Below are positions 48,415-53,589 of a DNA stretch of 64,000 bases, piece by piece. The notes below the pieces were generated by a model. That model did not search any database and had not been told where the DNA came from. It saw only the letters and a list, made by a program, of their open reading frames with translations. The stretch is from Oscillibacter sp. (GTDB taxonomy: Bacteria; Bacillota; Clostridia; Oscillospirales; Oscillospiraceae): positions 20,037-84,036 of the forward strand of contig JAAWLO010000002.1 of the NCBI GenBank assembly GCA_022797935.1. Direction: 5' to 3'. Each line of letters opens with the position of its first letter. The stretch's first letter is position 1. Position numbers and translations under genes: made by a program.

Positions 48415-50155
48415 CCAGACTCACTCCTTCCTGTTGGGATTGGTAGACCTCCTGATAAATGGGACAGGTCTTCATCAGCTGCTCGTGAACGCCCTGGGCC
48501 ACCACCTCTCCGCCGTCCATGACCAGAATGAGGTCCGCGTCCCGGACGGAGTTCACCCGCTGGGCGATAATCAGTTTGGTGGAGTCCTTCAGCTCCTTGG
48601 CGAAGGCCTCCCGGATTTTGGCGTCCGTAGCGGTGTCCACGGCGCTGGTGGAGTCGTCCAGAATCAGCACCTTGGGCTGCTTCAGAATAGCCCGGGCAAT
48701 GCACAGGCGCTGCTTCTGCCCGCCGGAGACGTTGACGCCGCCCTGGCCCAGGTCCGTGTCCAGCCCCTGGGGCATCCGTTCCAGGAATTCGTCAGCGCAG
48801 GCGGCCCGGCAGGCGGCCCAGAGCTGTTCCTCTGTGGCGTCAGGACGGCCCCAGAGGAGGTTTTCCCGGATGGTGCCGGTAAAGAGGGTGTTCTTTTGCA
48901 GCACCATGCTGACGGATTCCCGCAGCTGTTCCATGGTGTAGTCCGCCACGGGCCGCCCGCCGACGCAGACGGAGCCCTGGTTGGCCTCATACAGCCGGGG
49001 AATCAGGGAGACCAGGGAGGTCTTGCCGCTGCCGGTGCCCCCCAGGATGCCCACCGTTTTGCCGGAGGGGATGTGGAGGCTGATGTCCCGGAGGACCCAT
49101 TCGCTGCTCTCGGTGTGATACTTGAAAAAGACATGGTCGAAGGTGATGCTGCCGTCGGCGGGGACAGCGGGTCCGTTCGCCTCCTGTTTTGCCGCGCTGT
49201 CGGTAATGGAAGGAGACTCGCTGAGAACCTCCGTAATCCGCTTGGCGCAGGCAATGGAACGGGAAAACATCATGAAAATCATGGAGACCATCATCAGAGA
49301 AATGAGAATTTGGGAGATATAGGTAAAATAGGTAATGAGCTTTCCGGCCTCCAGGGTTCCGGCGAAGACCATCTGCCCGCCGAACCACATGACGGCGATG
49401 ATGGTGCCGTAAACAATGAGCATCATCAGGGGCATGTTGATGACCACCGCGCCGAAGGCCCGCTGAGAGGTGGATTTCAAATCGTGGCTGCGCTGCCGGA
49501 ACTTCTCCCGCTCATGGTCCTCCCGGACAAAGGACTTGACCACGCGGATGCCCGTCAGATTTTCCTGCACCACCAGATTCAGAGCGTCTGTTTTCTCCTG
49601 GAGGGCCCGGAACAGGGGACCGACCCGCACCAGAATCACGGCGACAATGGCCGTCAGCAGGGGCAACGCCACCAGGAAGACGGCGCTGAGCTGGAGGCTG
49701 ATGCGTATGGAGAGCACCAGGGCGGAGACCAGCATCACCGGAGCCCGGACCATGAGGCGCATGCTCATCATCAGGGAGAGCTGGAGGGCGTTGACATCGT
49801 TGGTCAGCCGGGTGACCAGGGAGGCGGTGGAGAATTTTTCGATGTTGGAAAAGGCGAAGGTCTGGATGTGGTCGTACTCCGCCCGGCGGAGGTTGGCGCC
49901 GAAGCCCATGCCCGCCACCGAGGAGGCCACCGCTGCACCCAGGCCCAGCGCCAGGGAGCACAGGGCCAGCAGGACCATAAGCGCGCCTTTGCGGAGAATA
50001 TAGGCCTGGTCGGCGTTGGCAATGCCCACGTCTACAATGTCGCTCATGACCAGCGGGATGAGCAGTTCGAAAATAGCCTCTGCCGCACTGCACGCAATAC
50101 CCGCCAGAATCCAGGGGGTATAGGGCCGGGCATGGGGCCAGAGAGTTTTCAGCAT
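48407..50155 (-). CDS. Heterodimeric ABC exporter, subunit A (degenerate site)
   Basis: A 582-aa half-transporter with six membrane segments and an ATPase domain. Walker A is GGTGSGKTS, the signature VSGGQKQRL is near canonical, and Walker B ends VLILDDSTSAVD, where the catalytic Glu is Asp. That is the non-hydrolytic site type of heterodimeric exporters. It overlaps marR by 7 nt and subunit B by 8 nt, forming a marR-A-B operon with multidrug-efflux character. Confidence 0.92.
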   Translation of the reverse strand: MLKTLWPHARPYTPWILAGIACSAAEAIFELLIPLVMSDIVDVGIANADQAYILRKGALMVLLALCSLALGLGAAVASSVAGMGFGANLRRAEYDHIQTFAFSNIEKFSTASLVTRLTNDVNALQLSLMMSMRLMVRAPVMLVSALVLSIRISLQLSAVFLVALPLLTAIVAVILVRVGPLFRALQEKTDALNLVVQENLTGIRVVKSFVREDHEREKFRQRSHDLKSTSQRAFGAVVINMPLMMLIVYGTIIAVMWFGGQMVFAGTLEAGKLITYFTYISQILISLMMVSMIFMMFSRSIACAKRITEVLSESPSITDSAAKQEANGPAVPADGSITFDHVFFKYHTESSEWVLRDISLHIPSGKTVGILGGTGSGKTSLVSLIPRLYEANQGSVCVGGRPVADYTMEQLRESVSMVLQKNTLFTGTIRENLLWGRPDATEEQLWAACRAACADEFLERMPQGLDTDLGQGGVNVSGGQKQRLCIARAILKQPKVLILDDSTSAVDTATDAKIREAFAKELKDSTKLIIAQRVNSVRDADLILVMDGGEVVAQGVHEQLMKTCPIYQEVYQSQQEGVSLDG

Positions 50156-50601
50156 GATTGCAAATCCTCCTCCAGATTTTGAATTGCGCGGAGCAGAAGG
50201 GACCGGAACAGGGTCTGCTCCTCCAGGGAAAAGCCCCGCAGAAGAGCTTCCTCCGCGTCCAGAAATTGCCGCTGGAACAGCGCGTGCTGCTGTCCGCCCT
50301 TCTCCGTCAGGGTAATGAGGCGGCGGCGGGCGTCGCTGCCGCTGATGGAACGGCGGACCAGACCCTTCTCCTCCATCCGGTCCAGCATTCCGTTGACAGT
50401 GGAGGGCTTCACCCGCAGGCAGCGGGTCAGCTCACACTGGGGAAGCTGGCCGCCGTTTTGGTGCAGGAAAAGGAGAATTCGTGTCTGCGATGGGGTGATA
50501 CCGTATTGGGAGACGCGGACGTCCACGGCCGTCTTGGACAGCTGTGCCGCCAGGGATAGAGTGGGTCCCAGATATTGGGCGCAGCCAGCTTCCTGCAACA
50601 T
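50149..50601 (-). CDS. MarR-family transcriptional regulator
   Basis: A 150-aa MarR protein with winged HTH (PQCELTRCLRVKPSTVNGMLDRMEEKGLVRRSISGSDARRRLITLTEKG). I chose the ATG at 50601 (MLQEAGCAQ) with AGGAGG upstream; the track's earlier start runs through the operators. Two tandem dyads immediately upstream, over the transcription start, indicate autorepression and control of the ABC exporter genes. The ligand is probably a substrate of the exporter. Confidence 0.93.
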   Translation of the reverse strand: MLQEAGCAQYLGPTLSLAAQLSKTAVDVRVSQYGITPSQTRILLFLHQNGGQLPQCELTRCLRVKPSTVNGMLDRMEEKGLVRRSISGSDARRRLITLTEKGGQQHALFQRQFLDAEEALLRGFSLEEQTLFRSLLLRAIQNLEEDLQSC

Positions 50602-50630
50602 CACAGCAGCTCCTCCTATCGGCGCCTTTA

Positions 50631-50686: not shown

Positions 50687-50779
50687 GGAAGATTCCGGAA
50701 TTTTTTTTGAACATTGTATGAATAAAAAGTCGAATTTCTTGTCTTTTGTAAACAAATTATGAAAGGTCGGAAAAATCCG

Positions 50780-50808
50780 TTGACAGGGAGGGCGGCAGCC
50801 TGTATGAT
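50780..50808 (+). promoter_or_regulatory. Strong SigA promoter of a candidate small RNA
   Basis: TTGACA (50780-50785), 17-bp spacer, TATGAT (50803-50808). No ORF with a start codon follows before the terminator at 50868. Confidence 0.85.
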
Positions 50809-50814
50809 GAACCC

Positions 50815-50915
50815 ATCAAGCGGAAACGCTTGTTGACCCACCATTTTCCCTCTCCTTTCTCTATATCAAACGGAAAGCGGGCAGTCCGAAAGGGCTGTCC
50901 GTTTTCCGTTTTTTC
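50815..50915 (+). ncRNA. Candidate ~100-nt small RNA
   Basis: The transcript from the 50780 promoter would begin near 50815. It starts with a 6-bp hairpin capped by a GAAA tetraloop (CAAGCG-GAAA-CGCTTG, 50817-50832). A single-stranded CU-rich stretch follows (CCATTTTCCCTCTCCTTTCT, 50841-50860), complementary to Shine-Dalgarno sequences. It ends in a 20-bp terminator hairpin, also GAAA-capped. Tetraloops of GNRA type on this strand support RNA function in this orientation. It has no coding potential. Targets and regulation are unknown; a short antisense ORF is discussed under rejected items. Confidence 0.65.
50868..50914 (+). terminator. Very strong terminator of the candidate small RNA
   Basis: A 20-bp near-continuous stem (50868-50887 with 50892-50911, three G-U pairs, GAAA loop) runs into TTTTTT (50909-50914). 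Confidence 0.92.
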
Positions 50916-50946
50916 CGGTTGCGGGGAAAGACCGGGAATATTTCGA

Positions 50947-51229: not shown

Positions 51230-51793
51230 ATGGAAAAAATTCCGGTTCAGAAAATCGCTGGAGTGCTGAAGGGGCTGGTCATGATGACGCTGGCCTGCAA
51301 TCTGATTGCCCTGTTTCTTGTGCCGGGGCTGGTGCTGACAAAGGGGCTGGGAGACCTGCCGGCTCCTTATGAAAATCTGCTGGAGCTGCCGCTCCGGGTG
51401 CTGGCGGTTTGGGCGCTGAGTTGGAAATGGGTCTGGCAGGCCGGGATTTATGAGATGGTTTTGACGCTCTTTCTTCTTTTCTCCGGCTGCTGTACCGCCG
51501 TCATCCTCTGGCAGGCCCGCCGGGTGCTGCAGACCATCCTCCGGGGGGAGCCCTTCGCGCCATCGAATGCCGTCAGTCTGCGGAGGGCCGCCGGTTTCTG
51601 CTTCCTGATTGCCGGGGCGGCCCTGGCCCGGGTGATTTTCAGCGTGTGTTACTACCGCTCGCCGCTGCCTCTGGCCACCTACAACGCCCTCTTTGTGCCC
51701 ATGTTCGCCATGGGAGGCCTGTTGTGTCTGGTCATGTCCGCCCTCTTCCGCCAGGCGGCGGAGCTGAAGGCGGAAAACGACCTGACCATTTGA
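51230..51793 (+). CDS. DUF2975 membrane protein
   Basis: A 187-aa protein with four membrane segments and the DUF2975 pattern: a central RRVLQTILRGEPFAPSNAVSLRRAAGFCFLIAGAAL, then LRQAAELKAENDLTI at the C-terminus (FRQAAELKAENDLTI as read). DUF2975 genes are almost always followed by a small YozG-like HTH gene, as here. In Bacillus the corresponding pair is yoaS-yozG, with no assigned function. ATG at 51230 after GAGGGGGACGG. Confidence 0.85.
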   Translation: MEKIPVQKIAGVLKGLVMMTLACNLIALFLVPGLVLTKGLGDLPAPYENLLELPLRVLAVWALSWKWVWQAGIYEMVLTLFLLFSGCCTAVILWQARRVLQTILRGEPFAPSNAVSLRRAAGFCFLIAGAALARVIFSVCYYRSPLPLATYNALFVPMFAMGGLLCLVMSALFRQAAELKAENDLTI

Positions 51794-51802
51794 GGTGCCG
51801 CC

Positions 51803-52015
51803 ATGATCGTTGTGAATCTGGATGTGATGATGGCCAAGCGGAAGCTGAACCTCTCCCAGCTCTCGGAGAAAGTGGATATTACCCTGGCGAACCTGTCGGT
51901 GCTGAAAAACAACAAGGCCAAGGCCGTCCGTTTCTCCACACTGGAGGCCATCTGCGCCGCTCTGGACTGCCAGCCGGGGGACATTCTGGAATACGTCCCC
52001 GACGGGAAGAAATAA
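51803..52015 (+). CDS. YozG-like Cro/C1 helix-turn-helix protein
   Basis: A 70-aa HTH protein (VNLDVMMAKRKLNLSQLSEKVDITLANLSVLKNNKAKAVRFSTLEAICAALDCQPGDILEY). It is the standard partner of DUF2975 proteins, 9 nt downstream of that gene. It probably binds the nested dyad at 50947-50991 and represses its own operon, with the membrane protein perhaps modulating it. That regulation is inferred. Confidence 0.88.
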   Translation: MIVVNLDVMMAKRKLNLSQLSEKVDITLANLSVLKNNKAKAVRFSTLEAICAALDCQPGDILEYVPDGKK

Positions 52016-52062: not shown

Positions 52063-53589
52063 ATGCGTGAATTGGTAAACGCCCTCCCGCCGGAGGGTGC
52101 GGGTTCGTATACTCTGAAACGGCGGCTGGCCCCGGAAAAACTGGGCCGTTACCGTCTCTTTCTGGTTTTGACACTGGGCTTCTGTCTTCTGCTGGTGGAC
52201 GGTTTTCTCCTGTACGGTCCCGCCGCCGGGCTGACGGCCACCGTATTTGCCTGGTACGCGCTGTTTCTGGCCTGGTGCGGCTGGGGGATTCTGGAGCGGC
52301 GGTCCAGCCGGGTGCTGCTGCTGGCGAATCTCTTTCTGGCGCTGACAATGGCGTTGGGCTCCAACTGGTACTTCCGGTATTGGAATCTGCTGGCCTGCGC
52401 GGTATTGCTGCCGGTGCAGATCATGGCCGGCGCCGCCAGCCGTCCTTGGTGGGACCCCTGGATGCTGTGGGAGCGGTGTGGCCTCTTGCTGCGGGGACTG
52501 TTCGGGAACCTGTGGGCTCCCTTTGCGGCGCTGGTTCCCGGAAAACGGAGTGACGAGGCGAATAAACGGACGCTCACAGTGGTACTGGGCCTCTGCGGAG
52601 CGCTGGTTTTGGTATCGGTTCTGCTGCCGGTTCTGATTTCAGCGGACGCTCTCTTTGCCGCGTCGACGGTACAGCTCCAGCGGTGCATCCGTATGCTCCA
52701 TTTCAGCGATGTATTTCAGCGGCTGTTCTGGGCGCTGGTATTCACGCCCTTTGTGTTTGGCCTGCTGTACGCCCTGGCGCATCCGAAGCTGCTTTGCCCG
52801 CCGGAGGAGAAAAAAGTGCCGCAGGCGGATGCTTTGGGCTTTGTGCTGGCGCTGGCGGCGGTAGATGTGCTGTATCTTGCTTTTTTGGCGGTGCAGTCTG
52901 CCGGTCTCTTTGGCGGACCGGAATACGTGGAAGGCCTTGGGGTCAGTTATGCCGATTGGGCCCGGAGCGGCTTCTTTCAGATGGTAGGCGTGACGGTGGT
53001 CAACCTGAGCCTGACGCTGGCGGCGCTGAATCTTTCCCGGCGGGAGAGGAGGGACTGGACAGTCCTGCGGGGGCTGTGCGCCCTGCTGGTGGGAGAGAGC
53101 CTGATTCTGTTGGTTTCCGCCGCCTGGAAAATGACCTTGTATGTCTCTGCCTATGGCCTGAGCTTCAAGCGGTGCATGACCTATTGGGGGATGGGGATGA
53201 TGGCGCTGTTTCTTCTGCTGGGGCTGTGGAAGGCAAAAGAGCCGGACTTCCGGTACTGTAAATGGGCGTTTCCTCTGGCCCTGGCAGGGTGGCTGGCGAT
53301 CAACTGCGTGCCGGTGGACTATCTGGTGGCGAAGAACCAGGTGGACCGCTATCTCAGCGGTGAGAGCGCTGCGGTGAGCGTGCAGTATCTGGCTTACAGC
53401 CTGTCCTTCGATACCTTGTCCCAGCTGGACCGGCTGGATGGGGGAAAGCCGGTTGCCCACTATGACGGCAATGGAAATGGGGAAACCCTGGCGGAACTGC
53501 TGGAGAGGCGGCGGAACAGCGCGCAGGCGCAGTGCCGGAACTGGCGCAGCTGGTCGCTGTCGGCCTGTCTGGCGGCGGGACGCCGCTGA
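52063..53589 (+). CDS. Large polytopic membrane protein, DUF4173/DUF4153-like
   Basis: A 508-aa integral membrane protein with about 12 hydrophobic segments. The pattern (NWYFRYWNLLACAVLLPVQIM, LISADALFAAS, FWALVFTPFVFGLLYAL, LTLYVSAYGLSFKRCMTYWGMGMMALFLLLGLW-like region, NCVPVDYLVAKNQVDRY) resembles DUF4173/DUF4153 proteins often found near DUF2975 or HTH genes. The function is unknown. I chose the ATG at 52063 after AGGAGAATGG; the track start lies within the DUF2975 gene. A hairpin (CTGTCCGC / GCGGACAG) lies between it and the HTH gene. Confidence 0.8.
   Translation: MRELVNALPPEGAGSYTLKRRLAPEKLGRYRLFLVLTLGFCLLLVDGFLLYGPAAGLTATVFAWYALFLAWCGWGILERRSSRVLLLANLFLALTMALGSNWYFRYWNLLACAVLLPVQIMAGAASRPWWDPWMLWERCGLLLRGLFGNLWAPFAALVPGKRSDEANKRTLTVVLGLCGALVLVSVLLPVLISADALFAASTVQLQRCIRMLHFSDVFQRLFWALVFTPFVFGLLYALAHPKLLCPPEEKKVPQADALGFVLALAAVDVLYLAFLAVQSAGLFGGPEYVEGLGVSYADWARSGFFQMVGVTVVNLSLTLAALNLSRRERRDWTVLRGLCALLVGESLILLVSAAWKMTLYVSAYGLSFKRCMTYWGMGMMALFLLLGLWKAKEPDFRYCKWAFPLALAGWLAINCVPVDYLVAKNQVDRYLSGESAAVSVQYLAYSLSFDTLSQLDRLDGGKPVAHYDGNGNGETLAELLERRRNSAQAQCRNWRSWSLSACLAAGRR

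Follow-up and report, generated by a model that had tools for sequence, protein, structure and literature searches.

The question raised by this locus is whether the gap between a MarR operon and a membrane cassette in an Oscillibacter genome holds a small RNA gene of a new family, and, if so, what such an RNA would pair with and what would switch it on. The original prediction had placed there a novel transcript of about 100 nt without an ORF, bounded by a near-consensus promoter and a 20-bp terminator, with a GAAA-capped 5' hairpin and an unpaired CU-rich region complementary to ribosome-binding sites. In the window, by which we mean the whole 64,000-nt stretch of DNA that was analyzed, the following features are located:

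50746-50917, + strand: the box-promoter-sRNA unit as a whole (box, promoter, hairpin, linker, terminator)
50746-50763, + strand: 18-bp direct-repeat box TTGTAAACAAATTATGAA, TGTAAA-N5-TATGAA (TTCATA-N5-TTTACA on the other strand), conserved and of OmpR-family type
50780-50808, + strand: sigma-70-type promoter TTGACA-N17-TATGAT
50815-50917, + strand: sRNA gene (predicted transcript), starting at about 50815 and ending in the T-run after 50911
50817-50832, + strand: 5' hairpin CAAGCG-GAAA-CGCTTG (MFE fold, consensus alignment)
50833-50867, + strand: CU-rich linker of 35 nt, unpaired in the MFE, centroid and consensus folds
50841-50844, + strand: CCAT, the anti-AUG, 7 nt from the anti-GGAG
50844-50862, + strand: invariant 19-nt CU core TTTTCCCTCTCCTTTCTCT, anti-Shine-Dalgarno, near-identical in 46 aligned sequences
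50868-50917, + strand: intrinsic terminator with a 20-bp stem (50868-50911), GAAA loop and T6 tail (fold, compensatory changes)
50149-50604, - strand: MarR-family regulator gene (Pfam MarR_2), divergent from the sRNA, context only
51230-51793, + strand: DUF2975 membrane protein gene, downstream flank, context only
51803-52015: HTH_26 gene, after the DUF2975 gene
52063-53589: DUF4153 gene, after the HTH_26 gene

Most of what had been proposed for the transcription unit was borne out. The promoter matches the consensus at 11 of 12 positions (shuffles of the region average 0.9 sites at ≥9/12), the 20-bp terminator stem is followed by six T residues and covaries in homologues, and the stretch 50815-50917, in which no ORF is kept on the + strand, folds at -43.5 kcal/mol, compared with -20.9 ± 2.7 kcal/mol for shuffled sequences (z = -8.3). 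The 5' hairpin and its GAAA loop are present as described, but the loop varies in length and sequence across homologues, and the cap is therefore no defining feature. Likewise, the predicted extent of 50780-50915 takes in the sRNA elements but leaves the conserved regulator box outside. The claim of novelty held: Rfam 15, searched over 50780-50917, matched no family even at E ≤ 5, and the element is conserved across the genus as an RNA, non-coding on both strands. The surroundings are also as described, with the MarR/ABC operon on one side and the DUF2975/HTH_26/DUF4153 cassette on the other; among 61 homologues, MarR lies upstream in 48 and DUF2975 downstream in 35.

A search at the DNA level found 60 of 86 genus genomes to carry a homologue, one in each, and the covariance search in related genomes that had been suggested as a check, run with a model built from 46 homologues, gave full-length matches of ≥45 bits in at least 65 of the 86 (104.9 bits in the genome of the window itself). 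Many of the genus genomes lacking a match at this level are incomplete, or they apparently form a subgroup without the sRNA. An exact scan for the core over 84,980 species returned 43 contigs, all from Oscillibacter, Dysosmobacter or other Oscillospiraceae/Clostridia except for a lone gammaproteobacterial contig, which is probably a chance match. Judged by these searches, the sRNA in its exact form is confined to the Oscillibacter/Dysosmobacter genus. Within the alignment, the linker core is practically invariant and is followed by ATATCATAC or close variants, and the 5' hairpin keeps CAAGC/GCTTG, its helix being paired in 97% of alignment cells and mostly invariant. The terminator stem shows compensatory changes in 13 of its 16 alignable pairs. 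Over the whole structure, 15 pairs are altered on both sides, and 135 cells carry such two-sided changes against 28 in shuffles (none of 500 as high), a signal that is lost when the strands are slid against each other. Since the stem sequence varies yet its pairing holds, and since the core is invariant, the terminator is under structural constraint and the linker under sequence constraint. Some variation in these parts was also seen: a divergent homologue (L227, G017:C87:15578) has a linker with two tandem CTCTCCTTTC motifs, another locus (L270, G083:C1) has an exact second copy of the sRNA terminator hairpin (CAGGAACCGGGACAGTCC...GGCTGTCCCGGTTCCTG) about 260 nt beyond the sRNA on its downstream side, and stems resembling it are found repeatedly as terminators in the genus.

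The same conservation could be read as a small gene on the minus strand, with the Shine-Dalgarno (SD) sequence AAAGGAG and an ATG, both of which recur there (as an SD-like sequence plus ATG) in 50 of 61 homologues. The length of its product, however, scatters from 2 to 104 amino acids without conservation, from which we conclude that this ORF is not coding; moreover, the promoter, the terminator T-run and the box are all oriented to the plus strand. Codon-like conservation of the antisense ORF had been named beforehand as an observation that would overturn the RNA, and none was seen in the 61 homologues. The minus-strand SD and ATG are the mirror image of the anti-SD and anti-AUG on the plus strand, and with the length scatter already counting as a refutation we give an antisense gene practically no credence. 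On the plus strand, the only start is a TTG in the hairpin, relative to which the linker falls into the three frame classes 29, 20 and 8 times, with ORFs of 1 to 118 codons or running on; a sense ORF was rejected on the grounds that the core occurs in all three frames. By the pattern of conservation, the locus thus codes on neither strand, and we are all but certain that the sRNA exists as a conserved gene.

As to what such an RNA would do, the complement of the linker, AGAGAAAGGAGAGGGAAAAUGGUG, is an ideal SD site in which a start codon follows the GGAG at 7 nt, and the anti-AUG stands at the correct spacing to the anti-SD in most of 61 homologues (CAU in 53). The 3' end of the O. valericigenes 16S rRNA reads GGATCACCTCCTTTCTAAGG, so the nonamer CTCCTTTCT is common to the sRNA core and the ribosomal anti-SD tail. 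We compared the linker with 272 translation initiation regions (TIRs), preselected for GGAG, from 800 kb of O. valericigenes. The mean linker-TIR duplex energy was -15.6 kcal/mol, as opposed to -13.6 ± 0.75 kcal/mol for 30 permuted linkers, none of which paired with the TIRs as strongly as the real one, in agreement with the predicted complementarity to ribosome-binding sites. Duplexes at ≤ -20 kcal/mol were formed by 48 of the 272 TIRs, compared with 4 of 603 internal sites. Considering that the TIRs were chosen for GGAG, this result speaks for SD-directed pairing and indicates no particular targets. The target prediction that had been proposed from the CU-rich seed therefore succeeded in part: the complementarity is SD-directed, but no single conserved target emerged, as linker-complementary start sites (≤2 mismatches, 86 genomes) precede different, unrelated genes. 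A preference for membrane-protein mRNAs, initially at p = 0.003, was rejected since 6 of 60 permuted linkers match it. The predicted RNA has its own promoter and terminator, is non-coding and shows TIR complementarity beyond what its composition provides, all features of an anti-SD sRNA, and we consider it likely to act by anti-SD pairing.

The regulator box and the siblings across the family, both missing from the original prediction, are the most informative on function. Among homologues the box reads TTGTAAACAAAYTRTGAA, and its positions 2-7 and 15-18 do not vary among 57 of them. In all 57 measurable homologues it lies exactly 16 nt from the -35 element, which is separated by 17 nt from the -10 element; the box thus ends up 39 nt before the -10 and is centred near -60. 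A direct repeat with an 11-bp period is what we take to be the signature of OmpR/PhoB-family regulators, and judging from it, control of the sRNA by a member of this family is quite likely. In the genome of the window, no second copy of the box was found at ≤1 mismatch. Sites resembling TGTAAACAAAYTRTGAA occur elsewhere in the genus, for instance before LacI-type promoters, and were not counted, their distance to the promoter being wrong. At three loci (L206, L207, L209), a conserved promoter is preceded by TGTAAACAAACCGTGAA and followed by the palindrome CGCAAACGTTTGCG, which probably forms an operator of the LacI family. In the genome of the window, the box TTCACA-ATTTG-TTCATG stands upstream of a secreted-protein gene (MKRFLTKRLPACLLALLLTVSLAPGALA...; L078 position 1500, G000:C131:7046), which may be a regulon member. 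In species of the same genus where the sRNA was not convincingly found (L210, L212 and L237, from G019, G020 and G023), a CBS-domain gene is preceded by TTCACA-type repeats, two or three in number, that have an 11-bp period.

Outside the genus, matches to the covariance model below about 40 bits were kept only if they had both a CU linker and a box, and most of them were rejected as siblings, being plain terminators. Sister genera do have CU-rich, terminator-ended RNAs, with a hairpin or none, behind TTCACA-N5-TTCACS: the box accompanies 17 of 39 CU-rich model matches (12 genera) and none of 11 other matches (p = 0.009). One sister-genus RNA (L277) retains the Oscillibacter box, the 16-nt spacing and the core TTCTCTCTCCTTTCTCT, and one sister-genus genome (G297; L325, L341, L343) contains at least three boxed siblings of the CU-rich, terminator-ended type. 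The box scan covered six sister-genus genomes. In four genera (L340, L342, L347, L349), the box stands directly before one response-regulator gene, whose products are 90-93% identical; a HAMP/HisKA kinase gene follows it, and it is preceded by a gene for what is presumably a CDF-type transporter, as recognized from its sequence. At one of these loci (L340, G456:C1:2429000-2433500), two tandem CU-rich sRNAs at 2755 and 2931 on the + strand, each with a TTYACA-N5-TTCACS box, lie close to and divergent from the transporter/response regulator/kinase operon, inside which a box stands before the regulator gene as well. Further copies of the box are found before clpB in two genera, and before ftsH and an McsA-like gene in one; this ftsH was confirmed by NCBIfam, while clpB and the McsA-like gene are what we take them to be from sequence recognition. 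In two Oscillibacter species the box again precedes ftsH, 42 nt before the -10 (compare 39 nt at the sRNA). Its presence at ftsH, clpB and the McsA-like gene points to a response to envelope or protein-quality stress.

For the controller of the sRNA, the autoregulated, CDF-linked pair of response regulator and HAMP/HisKA kinase in the four sister genera is plausible and the best candidate, with the considerations for and against it about evenly balanced. The box of the Oscillibacter sRNA (TGTAAA...TGTGAA) is inverted relative to the ftsH and sister-genus boxes (TTCACA...TTCACC), which counts against this reading, and no orthologue of the response regulator was found in 800 kb of O. valericigenes. 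Among NCBIfam equivalog models, the candidate regulator (L342) matches MtrA, PhoB and WalR (YycF) best, yet stays below their cut-offs, reaching 241 for MtrA (cut-off 300), 227 for PhoB (296) and 225 for YycF (340), and the nearest family of the candidate kinase is WalK, far below its cut-off.

Two known regulators could drive the same sRNA instead. Under PhoP/PhoB it would be a phosphate-starvation RNA, and the half-site TTYACA with its 11-bp period is indeed of PhoB type. The pstS promoters of the same genera, including that of the sRNA, carry TTTACA-N5-TTTACA, so that the half-site alone does not suffice to name the regulator. Yet when boxes from the same genomes are compared, TTCACA/TTCACS stands at the sRNAs and TTTACA at pstS, the pstS boxes lie nearer the -10 and have a third repeat, and the sRNA-type box is found before ftsH, clpB and the gene of another response regulator. 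Because the pstS promoters have a different variant of the box, the regulator of the sRNA is not simply PhoP; neither the variant nor the placement seen at pstS in these genomes recurs at the sRNA, and phosphate control appears unlikely. (Pho-type pstS promoters as such, with TTTACA-N5-TTTACA and a third TTTACA before TATACT, are conserved across Oscillospiraceae genera, at L326-L331 and L239-L244.) WalR (YycF), which would link the sRNA to cell-wall metabolism, has the consensus TGTWAH-N5-TGTWAH (PMC9210968), to which TGTAAA-N5-TGTGAA conforms in orientation and, save for one mismatch (TGTGAA), in sequence. That WalK is the best family for the candidate kinase points the same way. However, both the WalK and the YycF matches are far below cut-off, and no cell-wall hydrolase gene is among the box sites examined, which leaves WalR a doubtful choice.

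Two other readings concern the action of the RNA. The linker could serve to bind a cold-shock or KH-domain protein that the sRNA titrates, as a protein site would likewise give an invariant pyrimidine core of 19 nt with no conserved target. Protein binding, however, requires neither complementarity to SD and start codon at the correct spacing nor pairing energies beyond those of permutations of the same composition, and we regard such titration as rather improbable. The other reading builds on the ribosome itself: if the sRNA, whose invariant core repeats the anti-SD sequence, were a mimic of the 16S 3' tail, the firing of a conserved envelope-stress two-component system would mask many SD sites and damp initiation broadly, with equivalents of other sequence behind the same box throughout the Oscillospiraceae; to us this is an unlikely, speculative extension.

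We favor, as the probable explanation, a stress-induced, trans-acting sRNA that is activated by an OmpR/PhoB-family regulator and blocks SD sites, with its targets, its signal and its regulator in Oscillibacter inferred. A phosphorylated response regulator of this family would bind the direct-repeat box near -60 and activate the promoter, the unpaired linker would pair with several mRNAs at their SD region and start codon, and this pairing would block 30S binding, so that a group of proteins is made in smaller amounts under stress. To our knowledge, the Oscillospiraceae are abundant but little-studied gut commensals in which post-transcriptional regulation is almost unexplored. The analysis yields an sRNA that extends across the genus, a box that is probably the site of its regulator and siblings in a dozen sister genera, as well as a candidate two-component system whose regulon apparently comprises ftsH, clpB, the McsA-like gene, its own gene and sRNAs. 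The hypothesis can be tested in species that have been cultured, among them Oscillibacter valericigenes Sjm18-20; if it is true, the design of csRNAs and LhrC, in which a two-component system drives anti-SD RNAs, recurs in Clostridia.

In the searchable literature we found no earlier description of the sRNA. The HMP2 survey of structured RNAs lists 3161 comparative candidates from gut bacteria in a text that names neither Oscillibacter nor Dysosmobacter (PMC8040213); the sRNA could be one of these candidates. Among known systems, the csRNAs of CiaRH in Streptococcus, whose targets include comC (PMC4507080), have the box TTTAAG-N5-TTTAAG 10 nt upstream of the -10 (PMC3091779, PMC4507080). They resemble the Oscillibacter sRNA in having an OmpR-family direct repeat (N5, 11-bp period) before the promoter, in the arrangement of two stem-loops around an unpaired anti-SD/anti-AUG linker, which the Oscillibacter sRNA shares, and in being small and terminator-ended with sibling copies in some genomes. 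By contrast, the Oscillibacter sRNA has TGTAAA-N5-TGTGAA near -60 and a full -35, and thus neither the CiaR box nor its placement; it is also a single copy, belongs to a different bacterial class, and no sequence homology was found. LhrC of LisRK in Listeria directs a UCCC motif against SD sites and has a LisR-responsive element at -53 to -75 (PMC4132741). Here, too, two-component control (likely for the Oscillibacter sRNA), a CU-rich UCCC motif directed at SD sites, two stem-loops and a regulator element placed much alike are in common. In LhrC, however, UCCC occurs in the two loops as well as in the linker, and there are five or more copies, whereas the loops of the Oscillibacter sRNA are GAAA, with UCCC-type sequence in the linker only, and no Rfam match links the two. 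RsaE and FsrA, C-rich Gram-positive sRNAs (PMC4132741), likewise expose an unpaired C/U-rich seed against the SD sequence, but differ in structure, regulator and seed, with no homology found. The resemblance to C/U-rich Gram-positive sRNAs had therefore been rightly noted as regards the seed, a type common to RsaE/FsrA, csRNAs and LhrC, and the Oscillibacter sRNA, built like csRNAs and LhrC, is a member of neither; on the best reading it would act in the same manner as a separate family.
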